The translations under genes and the position numbers were made by a program. Positions 433 to 5,562 of a stretch of 64,000 nucleotides of DNA are shown here, in pieces. Under the pieces are notes generated by a model. The model was given only the letters and a program-made list of their open reading frames with translations, was not told the origin of the DNA and searched no databases. The stretch is taken from the NCBI GenBank assembly GCA_945888515.1, contig CAMDAD010000001.1:124001-188000 (forward strand), written 5' to 3'. The stretch is from Akkermansia muciniphila. GTDB taxonomy: Bacteria > Verrucomicrobiota > Verrucomicrobiia > Verrucomicrobiales > Akkermansiaceae. Within the stretch, counting starts at the first letter, position 1. The number at the start of each line of letters is the position of its first letter.

Positions 433-756
433 TCAAGCGTCTTTTTTCACCACCAAGGCGACGGCCGTTTTATCGAACTCGACCATGGTGCTATCCGCGA
501 TTTTGATCACTACAGTTTTTTCCTTGATGTTATGGACTAGACCGTGAATGCCAGCAGTGGTCACGACCTTGTCGCCGGTCTGCATGGATTCGATGCGCTG
601 TTGTAGTTCCTTGCGCTGGCGTTGTTGGGGGCGGATGAGCAGGAAGTAGAACATGACCACCATCAATCCCATCATCAGCAGGCCTTGGTAGCCGGGACCG
701 GAGCTAGGAGCAGCGCCGCTGGTTTGAGCGAGAGTGGATAGAAAGGATGATATCAT
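433..756 (-). CDS. yajC: YajC, Sec translocase accessory subunit
   Basis: This is a 107-residue single-pass membrane protein that associates with SecDF. A transmembrane segment at about residues 25-41 (LLMMGLMVVMFYFLLIRP) is followed by PQQRQRKELQQ and the conserved 'MQTGDKVVTTAGIHG' motif of the YajC family. Its ATG overlaps the tgt stop by 4 bases (753-756), so the two are probably translationally coupled. secD follows downstream. Length and motif order are normal for the family. Confidence 0.96.
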   Translation of the reverse strand: MISSFLSTLAQTSGAAPSSGPGYQGLLMMGLMVVMFYFLLIRPQQRQRKELQQRIESMQTGDKVVTTAGIHGLVHNIKEKTVVIKIADSTMVEFDKTAVALVVKKDA

Positions 757-1880
757 GATTGTTTGAGGTAACGTTTGATGAAGGAATTCTTGAAAGACAC
801 AAAGGTCCCGTTGGCGATGGCTTGGCGCGCATCGCTCACGAGGCGCAAATAGAAATGCAGATTATGGAAAGAAAGCAACCGTAAAGAGAGAATTTCTCCC
901 GCACGGAACAGATGGCGGATGTAGGAGCGGGAAAAGCGGGCCACGTGAGGGTGGGCCGTTTCGCAGAGCGGACGAGGGTCGCGGGCGAAGGCGAGGTTCT
1001 TGATTTGGATCGGTCCATCGAGGGTAAAGGCGGTGCCGTGACGGGCCACGCGGGTGGGCATCACGCAGTCAAACATGTCCACCCCCCGGCCTATCATCTC
1101 CAAAATCTGCGGCGGCGTGCCCAGCCCCATCGCGTAGCGCGGCTTGTTTTCCGGCAAAAACGGCACCGCGTTGTCGATGGCGCGAAACATTTCCTCCTCC
1201 GGCTCGCCGACGCTCACCCCGCCGACCGCGTAGCCATCGAAGTCCATCGCCGCCAGCTCAGTGGCCGACTGCGCACGCAGATCCGCGTAGATGGAGCCCT
1301 GGACGATGCCGAAATGGTGCTGCCGTCCCGTGCCCGAGCGCGGCTCGTGCTGCGTCACCCAGTCCTTGCAGCGCCGGGCCCAGCGTGTGGTGAGGGCGAG
1401 CGACTCCGCTGCGTATTTTTCCTCGCAGGGATACGGCGGGCATTCATCAAACAGCATGGCGATGTCCGAGCCGATCGCCGCCTGGATCTCCATGCTGAGC
1501 TCGGGAGTGAGCATCATTTTCGAGCCATCGAGGTGGTTTTGAAACCGCACGCCGTCTTCGGTAATCTTGCGCAATTTCGCCAGTGACCAGACCTGGAAGC
1601 CGCCGGAGTCCGTGAGGATGGGCTTATCCCAGGAGGCGAACTGGTGCAGGCCGCCCATGTCCTTGATCAGCTCGTGCCCCGGGCGCAGCCAGAGGTGGTA
1701 GGTATTTCCCAGGATGATCTGCGCGCCGAGGGCATCGAGGTCATCGGGATGCAAGGTCTTCACCGAGCCCTGCGTGCCCACCGGCATGAAAATCGGCGTC
1801 TCCACCGTGCCATGCGGCAGATCAAGACGCCCCAAACGCGCTTTGGATTCGGGATCGGTCTGGAGCAGGGTAAACGGCAC
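753..1880 (-). CDS. tgt: tRNA-guanine transglycosylase lacking the zinc cysteines
   Basis: TGT exchanges guanine-34 of Asp, Asn, His and Tyr tRNAs for the queuosine precursor preQ1. All 375 residues align with the family: DSGGFQ with catalytic Asp91, FDECPPYP near 145, GGVSVGEP near 221 (Val type, as in preQ1-using enzymes) and the nucleophile in FDCVMPTR (Asp271). Two features are odd. The Phe after DSGGFQV that stacks on the base is Trp98. The zinc site normally reads CxCxxC, but here the stretch CETAHPHVARF at 306-316 has lost all three cysteines, while the fourth ligand, His339, remains. Flanking segments (SRSYIRHLFRAGEIL) are intact, so a frameshift is unlikely. queF, which makes preQ1, is about 10 kb away. 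Confidence 0.95.
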   Translation of the reverse strand: MPFTLLQTDPESKARLGRLDLPHGTVETPIFMPVGTQGSVKTLHPDDLDALGAQIILGNTYHLWLRPGHELIKDMGGLHQFASWDKPILTDSGGFQVWSLAKLRKITEDGVRFQNHLDGSKMMLTPELSMEIQAAIGSDIAMLFDECPPYPCEEKYAAESLALTTRWARRCKDWVTQHEPRSGTGRQHHFGIVQGSIYADLRAQSATELAAMDFDGYAVGGVSVGEPEEEMFRAIDNAVPFLPENKPRYAMGLGTPPQILEMIGRGVDMFDCVMPTRVARHGTAFTLDGPIQIKNLAFARDPRPLCETAHPHVARFSRSYIRHLFRAGEILSLRLLSFHNLHFYLRLVSDARQAIANGTFVSFKNSFIKRYLKQS

Positions 1881-2153
1881 AGGCGGATGTAAGGGGAAAA
1901 TGCGGACAATGAAAAGCGGGATTTTGACGGGAGGTAGGATATGTATCCGTCATCACGATTTATGAAAGGAGGACAGCGCTTCCAGCCTGTCTCGGCAAAC
2001 GGGCGTCCCGCCTGTTTTTTACTTCTAGAAGCTTATTCCTACAAAACCCCCTCTTTTCCCGAGTCGCTATCCACAAATCATCCAACGCGGCATCATATTG
2101 GGAACATATCGGCACGCAAGGGATAGGAGAAATGCAAAAATCCTTTTGCGCTA

Positions 2154-3068
2154 TCATTTTCCTGCTGCATCCCCCCTTTCTTTCAAAATTGCCTGCGCCG
2201 TGGCTTTGAGACGTTCGTCTGTGCTGGACTGTGATTGCTGTGCGTAGCGTTGCACATCCTCGGCTTTGATAAAATCCGGTGTTTTTTCGTTGAGACGATG
2301 CAGGGAAATAAGTGCTGTGCCCGCTAGCACAGGATTCCCTGATTCATAGGCCGCGCGGATCACATCCACTCCCTCTTGCCCCACTTGACCATCCGCAATC
2401 AAATGCGAGATGTGCTGAATGCTGTAGTCCCGCATCGCATCCGGAGCACTTGCATCCGCTTGAATACTATAGAAGATTTCATAGGCTTTCGCGGGCACTT
2501 CTTCGCGCAACATCGTCATCATTTCATCACCGATCCAGTTCCGCTGCCCCTCAGGCCAGCCATACAAATCCTTGCCACGCAAAAATGCCTCGACTTGATC
2601 CAAGCCAACCTCAAATCCCTTGCCCGCCCGCAGTTCGTTGACTAACAAATTCGACTTGTTTTCCCAGTCCTTTGCCTGAATCGACTTGAGACGAGCACCG
2701 CGAGTGAAAGCTTCATCGGCTGGAAGCTTGGGCGTCGCCTCGATCACACCACCAGCCGCAAGAATCGCATCGTCTTCCGCGATCGCTCGTTGATAACGTT
2801 CTTGCACTTCAACAGCATCTGCTTCCTTTTCTATCGACGGTAACGACCCAGGCGGCAGCGCCAACGGCTTGGATTCAATGATTTCTTCAACTGGTGAATT
2901 ACCAGTATCTTCACGCAGCTTTCCGCGCTTAGATTTTGTGGCAACAGCCTCATTACGCCCATCGTCCAAAAAACTTTTTATCGCAGCGGCACGCTTTTTC
3001 CACACAAAAAACCCTGCTACCATTAGAGCGGCAAATGCTAGGATTGTGAGTTGTTTGGATTTAAGCAT
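2154..3068 (-). CDS. Membrane-anchored protein of unknown function
   Basis: I do not recognise this family. The 304-residue product has a short basic N-terminus, one transmembrane helix (LTILAFAALMVAGFFVW, about residues 7-23), a charged low-complexity linker to about residue 95, and an all-helical C-terminal part resembling degenerate HEAT or TPR-like repeats (for example HLIADGQVGQEGVDVIRAAYE). The topology suggests the helical part faces the periplasm or is anchored to the inner face. I chose the ATG just before the transmembrane helix; an in-frame ATG at 3089 adds seven residues. It sits alone between tgt and a decayed patch. Confidence 0.7.
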   Translation of the reverse strand: MLKSKQLTILAFAALMVAGFFVWKKRAAAIKSFLDDGRNEAVATKSKRGKLREDTGNSPVEEIIESKPLALPPGSLPSIEKEADAVEVQERYQRAIAEDDAILAAGGVIEATPKLPADEAFTRGARLKSIQAKDWENKSNLLVNELRAGKGFEVGLDQVEAFLRGKDLYGWPEGQRNWIGDEMMTMLREEVPAKAYEIFYSIQADASAPDAMRDYSIQHISHLIADGQVGQEGVDVIRAAYESGNPVLAGTALISLHRLNEKTPDFIKAEDVQRYAQQSQSSTDERLKATAQAILKERGDAAGK

Positions 3069-3234
3069 GGGAAATATGATTCCATTCATCTTGAATTCAG
3101 AGATCCTTGTTTCGTCTAACAGAAAGATGTTCTGCTACCATACGAGTATGATGCATCATGTTACCATAATTCAAAATGTAACACCTCGATGGCATGACCC
3201 GAGAGAAGCGTTAATGCATCTTCCACTTAAGTTA

Positions 3235-3666
3235 CTATTCAGCAGCTTTAATTAGCCATGGGGCATCAAAATACACACATTTGCCATTACGCGGATTAAC
3301 CCAAGCTTTTGCAGTCGGCGTACTAGAGAATCCAGTGTGCACACTAAATAAAAATAATTTTTCTCCCTTTTTGGAAAATTCCGCCACATCAAAAGGCAGT
3401 GTTACAAGACCTCCATACTTAAGGCCTTGTCTTGAAGAAAAACCTTCTCCTGCGCTTTTAACATATTCATTTTCTGCAATGATATATCCTTCGCTGGACT
3501 TTTTGATGAGATAGTCACCCTTCAGTTCAACCTGAGGTGGATAACCAAATTTTGTCATATCAAGTTCAATTGGTATTCCCGCAAGTATCCTCGGATCAAT
3601 TTCATCTGAATTTGATTGCGCTGTAACATGCAACAATATTACTGGTAGTAGAAAGATGTATTTCAT
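3235..3666 (-). CDS. Small exported protein of unknown function
   Basis: A 143-residue product begins with a clear signal peptide (MKYIFLLPVILLHVTAQS). The mature part is rich in Gly, Lys and aromatic residues and ends with AWVNPRNGKCVYFDAPWL. No family is recognised. Base composition is visibly AT-richer than in neighbouring genes, with many TTT, AAT and ATA codons, which suggests acquired DNA. Starts at 3687 or 3693 are possible, but the one used gives the best signal peptide and leaves a 10-base gap after the preceding fragment. Pairing with that fragment hints at a two-gene cassette whose first gene lost its 5' part. Confidence 0.6.
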   Translation of the reverse strand: MKYIFLLPVILLHVTAQSNSDEIDPRILAGIPIELDMTKFGYPPQVELKGDYLIKKSSEGYIIAENEYVKSAGEGFSSRQGLKYGGLVTLPFDVAEFSKKGEKLFLFSVHTGFSSTPTAKAWVNPRNGKCVYFDAPWLIKAAE

Positions 3667-3676
3667 AAATTTATTA

Positions 3677-3907
3677 TCAATTTTCATAGGCAAATGGGTT
3701 GATTTGAATATCCAGCCCTGCTGGATTTTTTTTAAATGTTAGGATGTAATCCACGGTTGGAGGCCTTAATTGATTTGTTGCACCTGACTTAAAAAAAGCA
3801 TCAATAATTAACTCGAAGTCATCAAGCTTATTGTGTGTCAAGCCATAGCTAGGATCATAAAGTTTTTCTTCTGCACCAAATTTCACAACCTTGTGATTTT
3901 GAAACAA
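3677..3907 (-). pseudogene. C-terminal fragment of a lost protein, possibly transglutaminase-like
   Basis: The frame encodes 76 residues with no convincing start signal, although it formally opens with ATG at 3907. It begins NHKVVKFGAEEKLYDPSYG. This resembles the His...Asp strand pair ('HAVVK...YDPSYG') near the C-terminus of papain- or transglutaminase-like domains, including those at the ends of some polymorphic toxins. That assignment is inference from a short match. The upstream half of such a domain, with its Cys, is absent. The sequence immediately 5' belongs to a different gene family, so this looks like the right side of a deletion junction. Confidence 0.45.
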
Positions 3908-4014
3908 TGCTGCTGGCGTAACGTTCGCGATCCTAACAAGGCCACGATTGGGTTTTCCTCCAAGGCCTGTCGAACCTCCGCGCGGAAATCGGAACGGTCA
4001 TAGAAGTGTTTCAT
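3883..4014 (-). pseudogene. Truncated AAA ATPase (DUF4143-type) N-terminus
   Basis: An ATG at 4014 opens a 43-codon frame ending in TGA. It reads MKHFYDRSDFRAEVRQAL, then EENPIVALLGSRTLRQQ. The segment 'NPIVALLGSR' matches the strand before the P-loop in ATPases of the DUF4143 group, which typically continue PRQxGKTTLA. Here the sequence leaves the family immediately after LLGSR, so the Walker A lysine and everything beyond are gone. The frame runs into the 5' end of the 3677-3907 fragment in another phase. I read this as a deletion fusing two unrelated genes. The repeat array upstream is still in place. Confidence 0.55.
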
Positions 4015-4036
4015 GGGCGAAATTTGAAGTCACAAC

Positions 4037-4191
4037 TTCCGAATTTCAAGGATCATTTTCATAATACACCTTGAAATTCGGAACTAGAAATTCCGAATTT
4101 CAACCATATTTCCCGAAAAAACCCTTGAAAATCGGAAGCACAGGTTTCGATTTTCAAGTTTAGTTAGAGGTAAAACCGTTGAAAATACGCG
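4037..4191. repeat. Three tandem 54-bp units, each a dyad of 15-bp arms
   Basis: The core TTCCGAATTTCAAGG is at 4037-4051. Its exact reverse complement is at 4069-4083. Further copies alternate in orientation: 4091-4105 (forward, two changes), 4123-4137 (reverse, one change), 4145-4159 (forward, diverged) and 4177-4191 (reverse, diverged). Arm starts are spaced 32, 22, 32, 22 and 32 bases, so the period is 54. The block fills the gap between the lysA stop and the ATG of the truncated ATPase, and copies decay with distance from that ATG. Regular dyads of this kind suggest an operator array for a dimeric DNA-binding protein. Confidence 0.85.
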
Positions 4192-4214
4192 GAAAATGCG
4201 GAAAAGCTCCCATT

Positions 4215-5501
4215 TTACTCCTCGCCGACGATCACGTCTTCCAAGGTCTGGCGCTTGCGCACGAGCGTGGCTTTGTCGCCATCGACGAGGATTTCCGCGG
4301 GCAGCGGGCGGGTGTTGTAGTTGCTGGCCATGACAAATCCGTAGGCGCCGGCGGAGAGCAGCGCGATGACATCGCCGGGCTGGAAGTCGGGCATGGGGCG
4401 GTCTTGGCAGAAGAAGTCGCCACTTTCACAAATGGGGCCGACGACGTCTGCTTTGACGAAGTCGCCGTGTGTTTCGATGACGGGCGCGATTTCGTGGTGA
4501 CCTTCATAAAGCGCGGGGCGGATGAGGTCATTCATGCCGGCATCCACGATCTTGAAGGTCTTGGCGCTGCCTTTTTTCTCGTAGAGGCAACGGGTGAGCA
4601 GCACCCCGGCATTGCCGACGATGTAGCGTCCCGGCTCTAACAAAATTTTCAGCCCGAGGTCCTGAAGCAGCGGCACGACAGAGGCACCGTATTCCTCGAT
4701 GGTCAGCGGTTTGCTTTCCTCTTCCTTGGTCTGCCACCAGTGGAGTTGGCCGGAGGCGAGAGAATCGTGATAGACGATGCCGATGCCGCCACCGATGGAC
4801 CAGAACTCGATGCCATGCTTGTCCTTCAGCGCCTGGGCCAGAGGTTTTACTTTTTTCACCGCCTCCACGAAGGGCTGCACGGAAGTGAGCTGCGAGCCGA
4901 TGTGCATTTGCAAACCGCGCATGCGCACGTTTTTCCATTGTTCGCTGGCCTTGGCGTAGAGGCCCTCGATGGCGTCAAAGTCGATGCCGAATTTGTTCTC
5001 CGACTTGCCGGTGGAAATGTACTTGTGCGTTTTGGCATCGACATTCGGATTCACCCGCACGGCGGCCGGAGCGATCACACCGAGCTCTTTCGCCACTTCA
5101 TTCAGGTAGGCGAGCTCTGCTTCCGACTCCACATTGAAACAATAAATCCCTTGTTGCAGGGCGTAAATGATCTCCTCGCGCGTCTTGCCGACGCCGGCGA
5201 AAGTGCAATGCGCGGGATCGCCGCCGGCCTTGATCACGCGGAACAACTCGCCGCCGGAAACAATGTCAAAGCCCGCCCCGGCCTGCGCCAGCAGACGCAG
5301 CACGGAGAGATTCGAGTTCGCCTTCACCGCGTAGGCGACTTCGTGATCGAGCCCATGCAGGGCGAGATCGAGGCGGCGGTAGTGATCGAGAATCGTATTG
5401 CCCGAATAAACATAGAGCGGAGTGCCGTATTGATCCGCCAGCGACTGGAGGGCGACGTTTTCACAGTGGAGTTGGCCGTTGGTGTAGGAAAAAGCGTGCA
5501 T
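4215..5501 (-). CDS. lysA: Diaminopimelate decarboxylase
   Basis: LysA decarboxylates meso-diaminopimelate to L-lysine using pyridoxal phosphate. The 428-residue product shows AYAVKANSN with the PLP lysine near residue 60, GFDIVSGGEL, the glycine-rich phosphate loop SIGGGIGI, LEPGRYIVGNAG and the intersubunit catalytic CESGDFF. Length is normal. The ATG at 5501 gives MHAFSYTNGQLHCENV, the usual family N-terminus; an upstream ATG adds four residues. It stands alone, with the sulfatase operon upstream on the same strand and a repeat array directly downstream. Confidence 0.95.
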   Translation of the reverse strand: MHAFSYTNGQLHCENVALQSLADQYGTPLYVYSGNTILDHYRRLDLALHGLDHEVAYAVKANSNLSVLRLLAQAGAGFDIVSGGELFRVIKAGGDPAHCTFAGVGKTREEIIYALQQGIYCFNVESEAELAYLNEVAKELGVIAPAAVRVNPNVDAKTHKYISTGKSENKFGIDFDAIEGLYAKASEQWKNVRMRGLQMHIGSQLTSVQPFVEAVKKVKPLAQALKDKHGIEFWSIGGGIGIVYHDSLASGQLHWWQTKEEESKPLTIEEYGASVVPLLQDLGLKILLEPGRYIVGNAGVLLTRCLYEKKGSAKTFKIVDAGMNDLIRPALYEGHHEIAPVIETHGDFVKADVVGPICESGDFFCQDRPMPDFQPGDVIALLSAGAYGFVMASNYNTRPLPAEILVDGDKATLVRKRQTLEDVIVGEE

Positions 5502-5562
5502 GCAGGCGCGCACGCTAAACGCAAATCACCCGATCGCCAAGCGGGAAAATGATGAACACACG

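Follow-up and report, generated by a model that had tools for sequence, protein, structure and literature searches.

A candidate autorepressor operator array in front of a truncated AAA_14-DUF4143 (PDC-S01) ATPase gene

Dyads and a truncated ATPase gene between tgt and lysA

The window analysed here (the whole stretch of 64,000 bp of Akkermansia muciniphila DNA, contig CAMDAD010000001.1) carries an ordered array of dyads and the remnant of an ATPase gene between two genes named from their sequence, a tgt-like and a lysA-like gene. The features of the locus are as follows.

753 to 1880, reverse strand: tgt-like tRNA-guanine transglycosylase (named from sequence), neighbour on the other side of the cassette
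1895 to 1906, forward strand: left copy of the 12-bp direct repeat GGAAAATGCGGA that flanks the cassette
1926 to 3925, no strand assigned: 2,000 bp of unrelated sequence in place of the ATPase body, delimited by alignment to the intact ortholog (L074)
3926 to 4014, reverse strand: AAA_14-DUF4143 (PDC-S01) ATPase remnant, start codon to P-loop, from 3926 onwards 91% identical to the DNA of intact L074
4017 to 4049, reverse strand: dyad 1 (candidate operator O1), centre 4033 (-19), PWM score 16.2
4071 to 4103, reverse strand: dyad 2 (candidate O2), centre 4087 (-73), PWM score 23.9
4125 to 4157, reverse strand: dyad 3 (candidate O3), centre 4141 (-127), PWM score 19.0
4179 to 4191, forward strand: outer single half-site, in register (8/13), ending at the start of the right direct repeat
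4191 to 4202, forward strand: right copy of the 12-bp direct repeat GGAAAATGCGGA
4215 to 5513, reverse strand: lysA-like decarboxylase (named from sequence), neighbour on the array side, which adjoins tgt in the empty site of a relative

The array comprises three 33-bp dyads (13 + 7 + 13) and one outer half-site with a period of 54 bp. Relative to the start codon of the ATPase (ATG at 4014), the dyad centres 4033, 4087 and 4141 are at -19, -73 and -127. Six arms of a 15-bp core (CCTTGAAATTCGGAA) in alternating orientation, with steps of 32, 22, 32, 22 and 32 bp, had been described in the original prediction and were reproduced exactly (arm starts at 4037(-), 4069(+), 4091(-), 4123(+), 4145(-) and 4177(+)); the arms of the 13-bp core TTGAAATTCGGAA lie at 4037(-), 4071(+), 4091(-), 4125(+), 4145(-) and 4179(+). 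The six arms match the 15-bp core at 15, 15, 13, 14, 12 and 9 of 15 positions, and the decay in identity away from the ATG that had been proposed is therefore roughly right, except that it overlooked a degenerate seventh arm, in register and adjoining the ATG (4017-4029, 8/13 matches). Dyad 1 has an intact left half (TTGAAATTCGGAA) and is degenerate in the half nearer the ATG, and dyad 2 is a perfect 13 + 7 + 13 palindrome, TTGAAATTCGGAA-n7-TTCCGAATTTCAA. A chance origin of the array is excluded, since its 250 bp hold 23 inverted-repeat pairs, whereas resampled sequences average 0.13 and never exceed 2.

The frame that starts at 4014 reads MKHFYDRSDFRAEVRQALEENPIVALLGSR, a DUF4143-type N-terminus, and departs from the family inside the P-loop, leaving only the first 30 codons. 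The gene behind the dyads is thus, as originally proposed, a truncated DUF4143-type ATPase with a genuine N-terminus; the window copy has no Pfam match, and AAA_14 and DUF4143 do not occur in it in one chain. The intact ortholog, which was reached only through the DNA pattern of the dyad, lies in a Verrucomicrobiae genome (L074) and encodes an ATPase (MKHFYDRSDFRAEVRQALGENPIVALLGPRQCGKSTLAREFL...) with both AAA_14 and DUF4143 domains. Its flanks are 91-93% identical to the window, and its array has the same spacing and occupies the equivalent position in the tgt-lysA interval, which bears out the proposal that the array belongs to an ATPase cassette, now found intact in a congener. Where L074 has the 1,067-bp ATPase body (L074:1049-2115), the window has a different sequence of 2,000 bp (1926-3925). 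The body is therefore gone, as had been supposed, but it was replaced rather than plainly deleted, and positions 3677-3907, part of the region first singled out, belong to an unrelated ORF. The replacement carries three reverse-strand ORFs: 2154-3089, with no NCBIfam match; 3235-3693, with no Pfam or NCBIfam match; and 3677-3907, with nothing significant in Pfam.

In a second congener (L168), the cassette is missing and only 40 bp separate tgt from lysA. The direct repeat GGAAAATGCGGA occurs only twice in the 64 kb, and the empty site of L168 has one similar stretch, so that the repeat together with the empty site looks like the target-site duplication of an insertion. Searches with the 30-residue remnant in 337 genomes of the phylum, and with the DNA of the region in 288 genomes, returned only the window itself. 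Based on the intact cassette, the empty site and the flanking direct repeat, the array and the ATPase gene appear to have come, or to have been lost, as a unit, and the body of the window copy to have been lost afterwards. The best explanation of the window array is that it is an orphan operator, a relic of a lost cassette whose ATPase body was replaced.

Dyads upstream of AAA_14-DUF4143 genes

Searched as a DNA-only pattern in 84,980 species genomes (257 Gb), the dyad was found at eight loci, five of them immediately before AAA_14-DUF4143 genes in Fermentibacteria, Planctomycetota, Bacteroidota, Proteobacteria and Verrucomicrobiota (the family assignment of one, L073, being based on its P-loop region and a DUF4143 match). 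The other three are solo dyads of the TTGAAAnTCGG type with no adjoining ATPase gene (L070:786-818, L071:5715-5747 and L075:3952-3984), which are either relics like that of the window or terminator hairpins. The pattern had no match in viral contigs, and a viral origin of the dyad was rejected on this ground. The dyad was found once per genome; in the window's own genome, the core clusters only at the window locus, and relaxed matches elsewhere are mostly not dyads.

The presence of dyads upstream of intact Verrucomicrobiota DUF4143 homologues, a check set beforehand, was borne out by a dyad score of at least 10 in 29 of 87 genes (34/92 when the five loci found by pattern are included), compared to 1/92 shuffled sequences, 1/92 positions inside genes and 8/89 downstream regions. 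In other phyla, the same score was reached upstream of 26 of 55 genes, compared to 0/55 shuffles and one of a small set of 25 control genes. A matrix trained on Verrucomicrobiota only and then applied to these 55 genes gave at least 10 bits in 20 of them, compared to 3/55 shuffles and 2/25 control genes (Mann-Whitney p = 4e-7). Many of the genomes surveyed were metagenome-assembled, and the genes covered were bacterial. About half of the family members examined had no clear framed dyad, and neither did a divergent RKPLII-type subfamily. A divergent subfamily lacking the framed dyad makes up most of the 44 DUF4143 matches in the 2.7-Mb genome of Candidatus Limimorpha equi (L072).

The window's own genome also holds an intact DUF4143 gene (L001), with a core of its own (GCAAAATGG/CCATTTTGC) both upstream (L001:881-994) and downstream (L001:2207-2270). 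Among the family members, the core occurs on both sides of the gene only here.

Most genes have a single dyad. Where there are several, spacings of 53 bp (L036), 54 bp (L092), twice 54 bp (L074 and the window) and 61-63 bp (L211, L040 and L043) were seen, along with a few longer ones. Arrays of about 54 bp period before intact homologues, as first envisaged, thus exist at L074, L092 and L036 (53-54 bp), but they are not the rule among relatives, and averaged autocorrelation gave no 54-bp peak, the spacing recurring only in single genes. In these few cases, spacings near five or six helical turns fit binding on one face of the helix.

The intact protein belongs to a family with a patchy distribution, from 0 to 44 copies per genome. 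In the structural model of the L074 ATPase (pLDDT 93.6), residues 1-150 form an AAA core and residues from about 189 to 258 a winged helix; a C-terminal domain follows. This last domain has invariant E, ExD and ExK residues in 50 sequences (the ortholog and its relatives), and its model resembles Can2, DdmD, McrC and Hjc, albeit weakly (best E 5e-3); together, the invariant residues and the fold matches mark it as a predicted PD-(D/E)XK nuclease. The protein matches the PADLOC PDC-S01 models (E 8.9e-88), a sequence search against solved structures gave nothing significant, and NCBIfam and literature searches gave no named function for the AAA_14-DUF4143 family. A 2026 survey describes PDC-S01 as a fusion of an ATPase with the PD-(D/E)XK superfamily; among the defence candidates of prokaryotes it ranks fourth by frequency, nearly 40,000 copies having been detected, and experimental validation is given as pending for most such candidates, PDC-S01 included (PMC12988326).

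Position and frame of the dyads

We assessed the position of the dyads relative to predicted promoters, start codons and the protein tree. Among 67 genes with a framed dyad, the best sigma70-like -35 hexamer lay exactly at -16 (14 genes) or at +4/+5 (17 genes) from the dyad centre, although this match depends in part on the motif itself, as the hexamer resembles the half-site (TTGAAA/TTGCAA). The predicted -35 element would accordingly be the left half-site or the inner right arm. Hexamers resembling a -10 element were modestly one-sided (42 on the geneward side vs 24 on the mirror side).

The dyad is inherited with the protein clade. The clade that contains the L074 ortholog (14 rows, support 99) spans Verrucomicrobiota, Proteobacteria, Acidobacteriota, Planctomycetota and Fermentibacteria, and almost every dyad in it has its centre near -19 and abuts the ATG (CAAGGATG); the dyad of L069 also falls at -19 if a GTG start is taken. 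Across the genes analysed, most start codons were set by rule rather than by annotation. Mapped on the protein tree, near and far operator positions changed 9 times, compared to at least 11 in 300 shuffles, and operator position thus appears to follow the protein tree across phyla. For eight plasmid homologues with annotated starts, read blind, the best matrix match fell at -19 or -20 in seven (in Thermus, Dinoroseobacter, Phaeobacter, Acidithiobacillus, Mesorhizobium, Sphingobium and Cereibacter), which agrees with the -19 of dyad 1 in the window.

In genes of the -19 class (e.g. L098, L143, L147 and L231), the dyad abuts the start codon so closely that a normal ribosome-binding site would not fit, a hint that their transcripts are leaderless. 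On a megaplasmid of Acidithiobacillus caldus (L230:474-2118), the DUF4143 gene overlaps by 11 bp a gene whose annotation reads antitoxin Xre/MbcA/ParS toxin-binding domain protein, an arrangement like that of toxin-antitoxin loci.

The dyads share a frame of mirrored half-sites, TTG[AC]AAATYnnAA, and the inner bases are specific to each locus. When the best dyads of unrelated genes are aligned on their centres and read inward, the frame runs T/G at position 15, G at 14, A/C at 13, A at 12 and 11, A/T at 10, T at 9, C/T at 8, A at 5 and 4, and T at 2. Positions G14, A12, A11, T9, A4 and T2 are common to the Verrucomicrobiota and other-phyla sets, and the window dyads (16.2, 23.9 and 19.0 bits) carry the frame T15, G14, A12, A11, T9, A4 and T2 in mirrored form. 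Within a dyad, the two halves have matching bases at 80% of positions 15-3, a value raised by the selection of palindromes; halves from different genes match at 48-50%, whether or not they share a genome. Operators are alike only between proteins more than about 80% identical (12.2/14 positions) and are near background below 60%, so the frame persists even as the inner bases change. Paralogs within one genome had operators no more different from one another than those of unrelated genes, which gives no evidence of selection for mutual insulation.

Candidate autorepression and its alternatives

We consider it probable (roughly 0.7) that the array is the autorepressor operator of a single-gene AAA+ ATPase/nuclease cassette (AAA_14-DUF4143, COG1373-type, PADLOC PDC-S01). 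The mirrored half-sites lie over the predicted core promoter or the gene start. The ATPase would bind the dyad as a dimer, through its own winged-helix domain, and keep RNA polymerase off the promoter, and further dyads five (53-54 bp) or six (61-63 bp) turns upstream may allow additional copies of the protein to bind on the same face and strengthen repression. Such repression would limit a potentially harmful nuclease, the cost of which may be the reason for it, and gene-to-gene differences in the inner bases may leave each copy mainly in control of itself. We infer that the ATPase itself is the binder because the genes stand alone, the protein has a predicted winged helix and operator positions track the protein tree; covariation of operator and protein contributes weakly. 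Operator similarity tracked that of the recognition helix with a rho of 0.10 (21/500 permutations), and its relationship with domain identity was slight for the winged helix and absent for the other domains, too slight to serve as a main argument. Both the repressive sign of the control and a role in defence are likewise putative. The original proposal of a purpose-built operator array for an ATPase cassette is supported by the enrichment among homologues and by the intact ortholog, with protein binding as its putative component.

The dyads could instead be operators read by a separate host or defence-island regulator, which we regard as unlikely. This would suit a half-site (TTGAAAAT) that is simple and AT-rich and the weak coevolution of operator and winged helix. 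However, neighbouring genes change across phyla and the only constant partner of the dyad is the ATPase with its predicted winged helix, operator position follows the protein tree across the same phyla, and inner bases private to each gene would not be needed by a common host regulator; the occurrence of the dyad once per genome also argues against it.

Quite improbable, in our view, is a mobile element moved by the ATPase/nuclease, with the dyads as its ends or resolution sites and transcription control as a secondary effect. The absence of the cassette from the tgt-lysA junction of L168, the 12-bp direct repeat flanking the window cassette, the patchiness of the family (0 to 44 copies per genome) and the core on both sides of the L001 gene would all be expected of such an element, but downstream of the genes the arms do not recur (best match on average 8.84/14, vs 8.72 inside genes; 43 genes), and the dyads keep fixed distances from the promoter or start codon rather than marking the edges of an insert. 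A transposon with terminal inverted repeats was rejected, since the same repeat is not found at both ends, L001 being the exception.

We give still less credence to RNA hairpins in the leader, serving as an attenuator or RNase site. The long palindromic arms with a 7-nt loop could fold, and some dyads lie within 20 bp of the start codon; yet in the 17 genes with a predicted -35 at +4/+5 from the centre the dyad would be untranscribed, and a frame that is independent of direction and conserves its outer bases is in keeping with protein-DNA contact. A structured RNA element was rejected, as no Rfam family reached the gathering threshold in the window and many dyads are placed ahead of the predicted start of transcription. 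Finally, a chance or dispersed REP-like repeat unrelated to the ATPase has a negligible probability: three of the eight pattern loci (L070, L071 and L075) have no adjoining ATPase, but five precede the same gene family, enrichment recurs in independent gene sets, and the single core cluster in the window's own genome, without a many-copy spread, refutes REP/BIME dispersed palindromes, in line with the expectation stated at the outset. The REP, transposon-end and RNA-hairpin readings thus fit worse than an autorepressor operator.

If the dyads are autorepressor operators of the ATPase, a fixed-frame operator over the promoter would provide a handle on the control of PDC-S01, a very common defence candidate. 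It would predict the DNA-reading part of the protein and the base changes that release the gene, and make the role of these ATPases directly testable with promoter fusions in cultured bacteria. The frame could also serve to annotate the true start codons of PDC-S01 genes, the family offers a natural set of mutually different operators, and the orphan array of the window would be explained as the relic of a lost cassette. A broader scheme is more speculative and, on balance, rather doubtful: a large family (tens of thousands of genes) may be self-controlled through one frame with fast-turning private addresses, one polypeptide acting as ATPase, nuclease and repressor, and tandem dyads may nucleate an oligomer on their own promoter, linking silence and activation.

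Compared with known systems, the L074 ortholog resembles PDC-S01 in matching its models and in having AAA_14 and DUF4143, whereas the window copy is only a remnant and the accessible text of the survey mentions no operator for PDC-S01 (PMC12988326). The literature searched likewise held no description of such an operator for the PDC-S01/AAA_14-DUF4143 family. The archaeal Walker ATPases SSO1545 and PABY2304 (PDB 2fna, 2qen) share the AAA core and winged helix (L074 model residues 1-269 vs 2qen and 2fna: Z 17.1 and 16.3, 249 residues, rmsd 3.0-3.2 A), but the C-terminal PD-(D/E)XK part of the L074 model lies outside the alignment. STAND/Avs ATPase-effector defence proteins have a related P-loop ATPase fold (Avs and NLR are among the structural matches), whereas the PDC-S01 ATPase is small (about 390 aa) and without a sensor repeat domain; we know of no operator of this kind for them. 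Restriction-modification controllers and toxin-antitoxin loci use autorepressor palindromes over their own promoter, often in tandem, to limit a harmful enzyme, and the dyads described here would be alike in these respects. In those systems, however, the repressor is a small separate protein, whereas in PDC-S01 the roles of ATPase, nuclease and repressor seem to be united in one polypeptide, and its site combines a family-wide frame with private inner bases.
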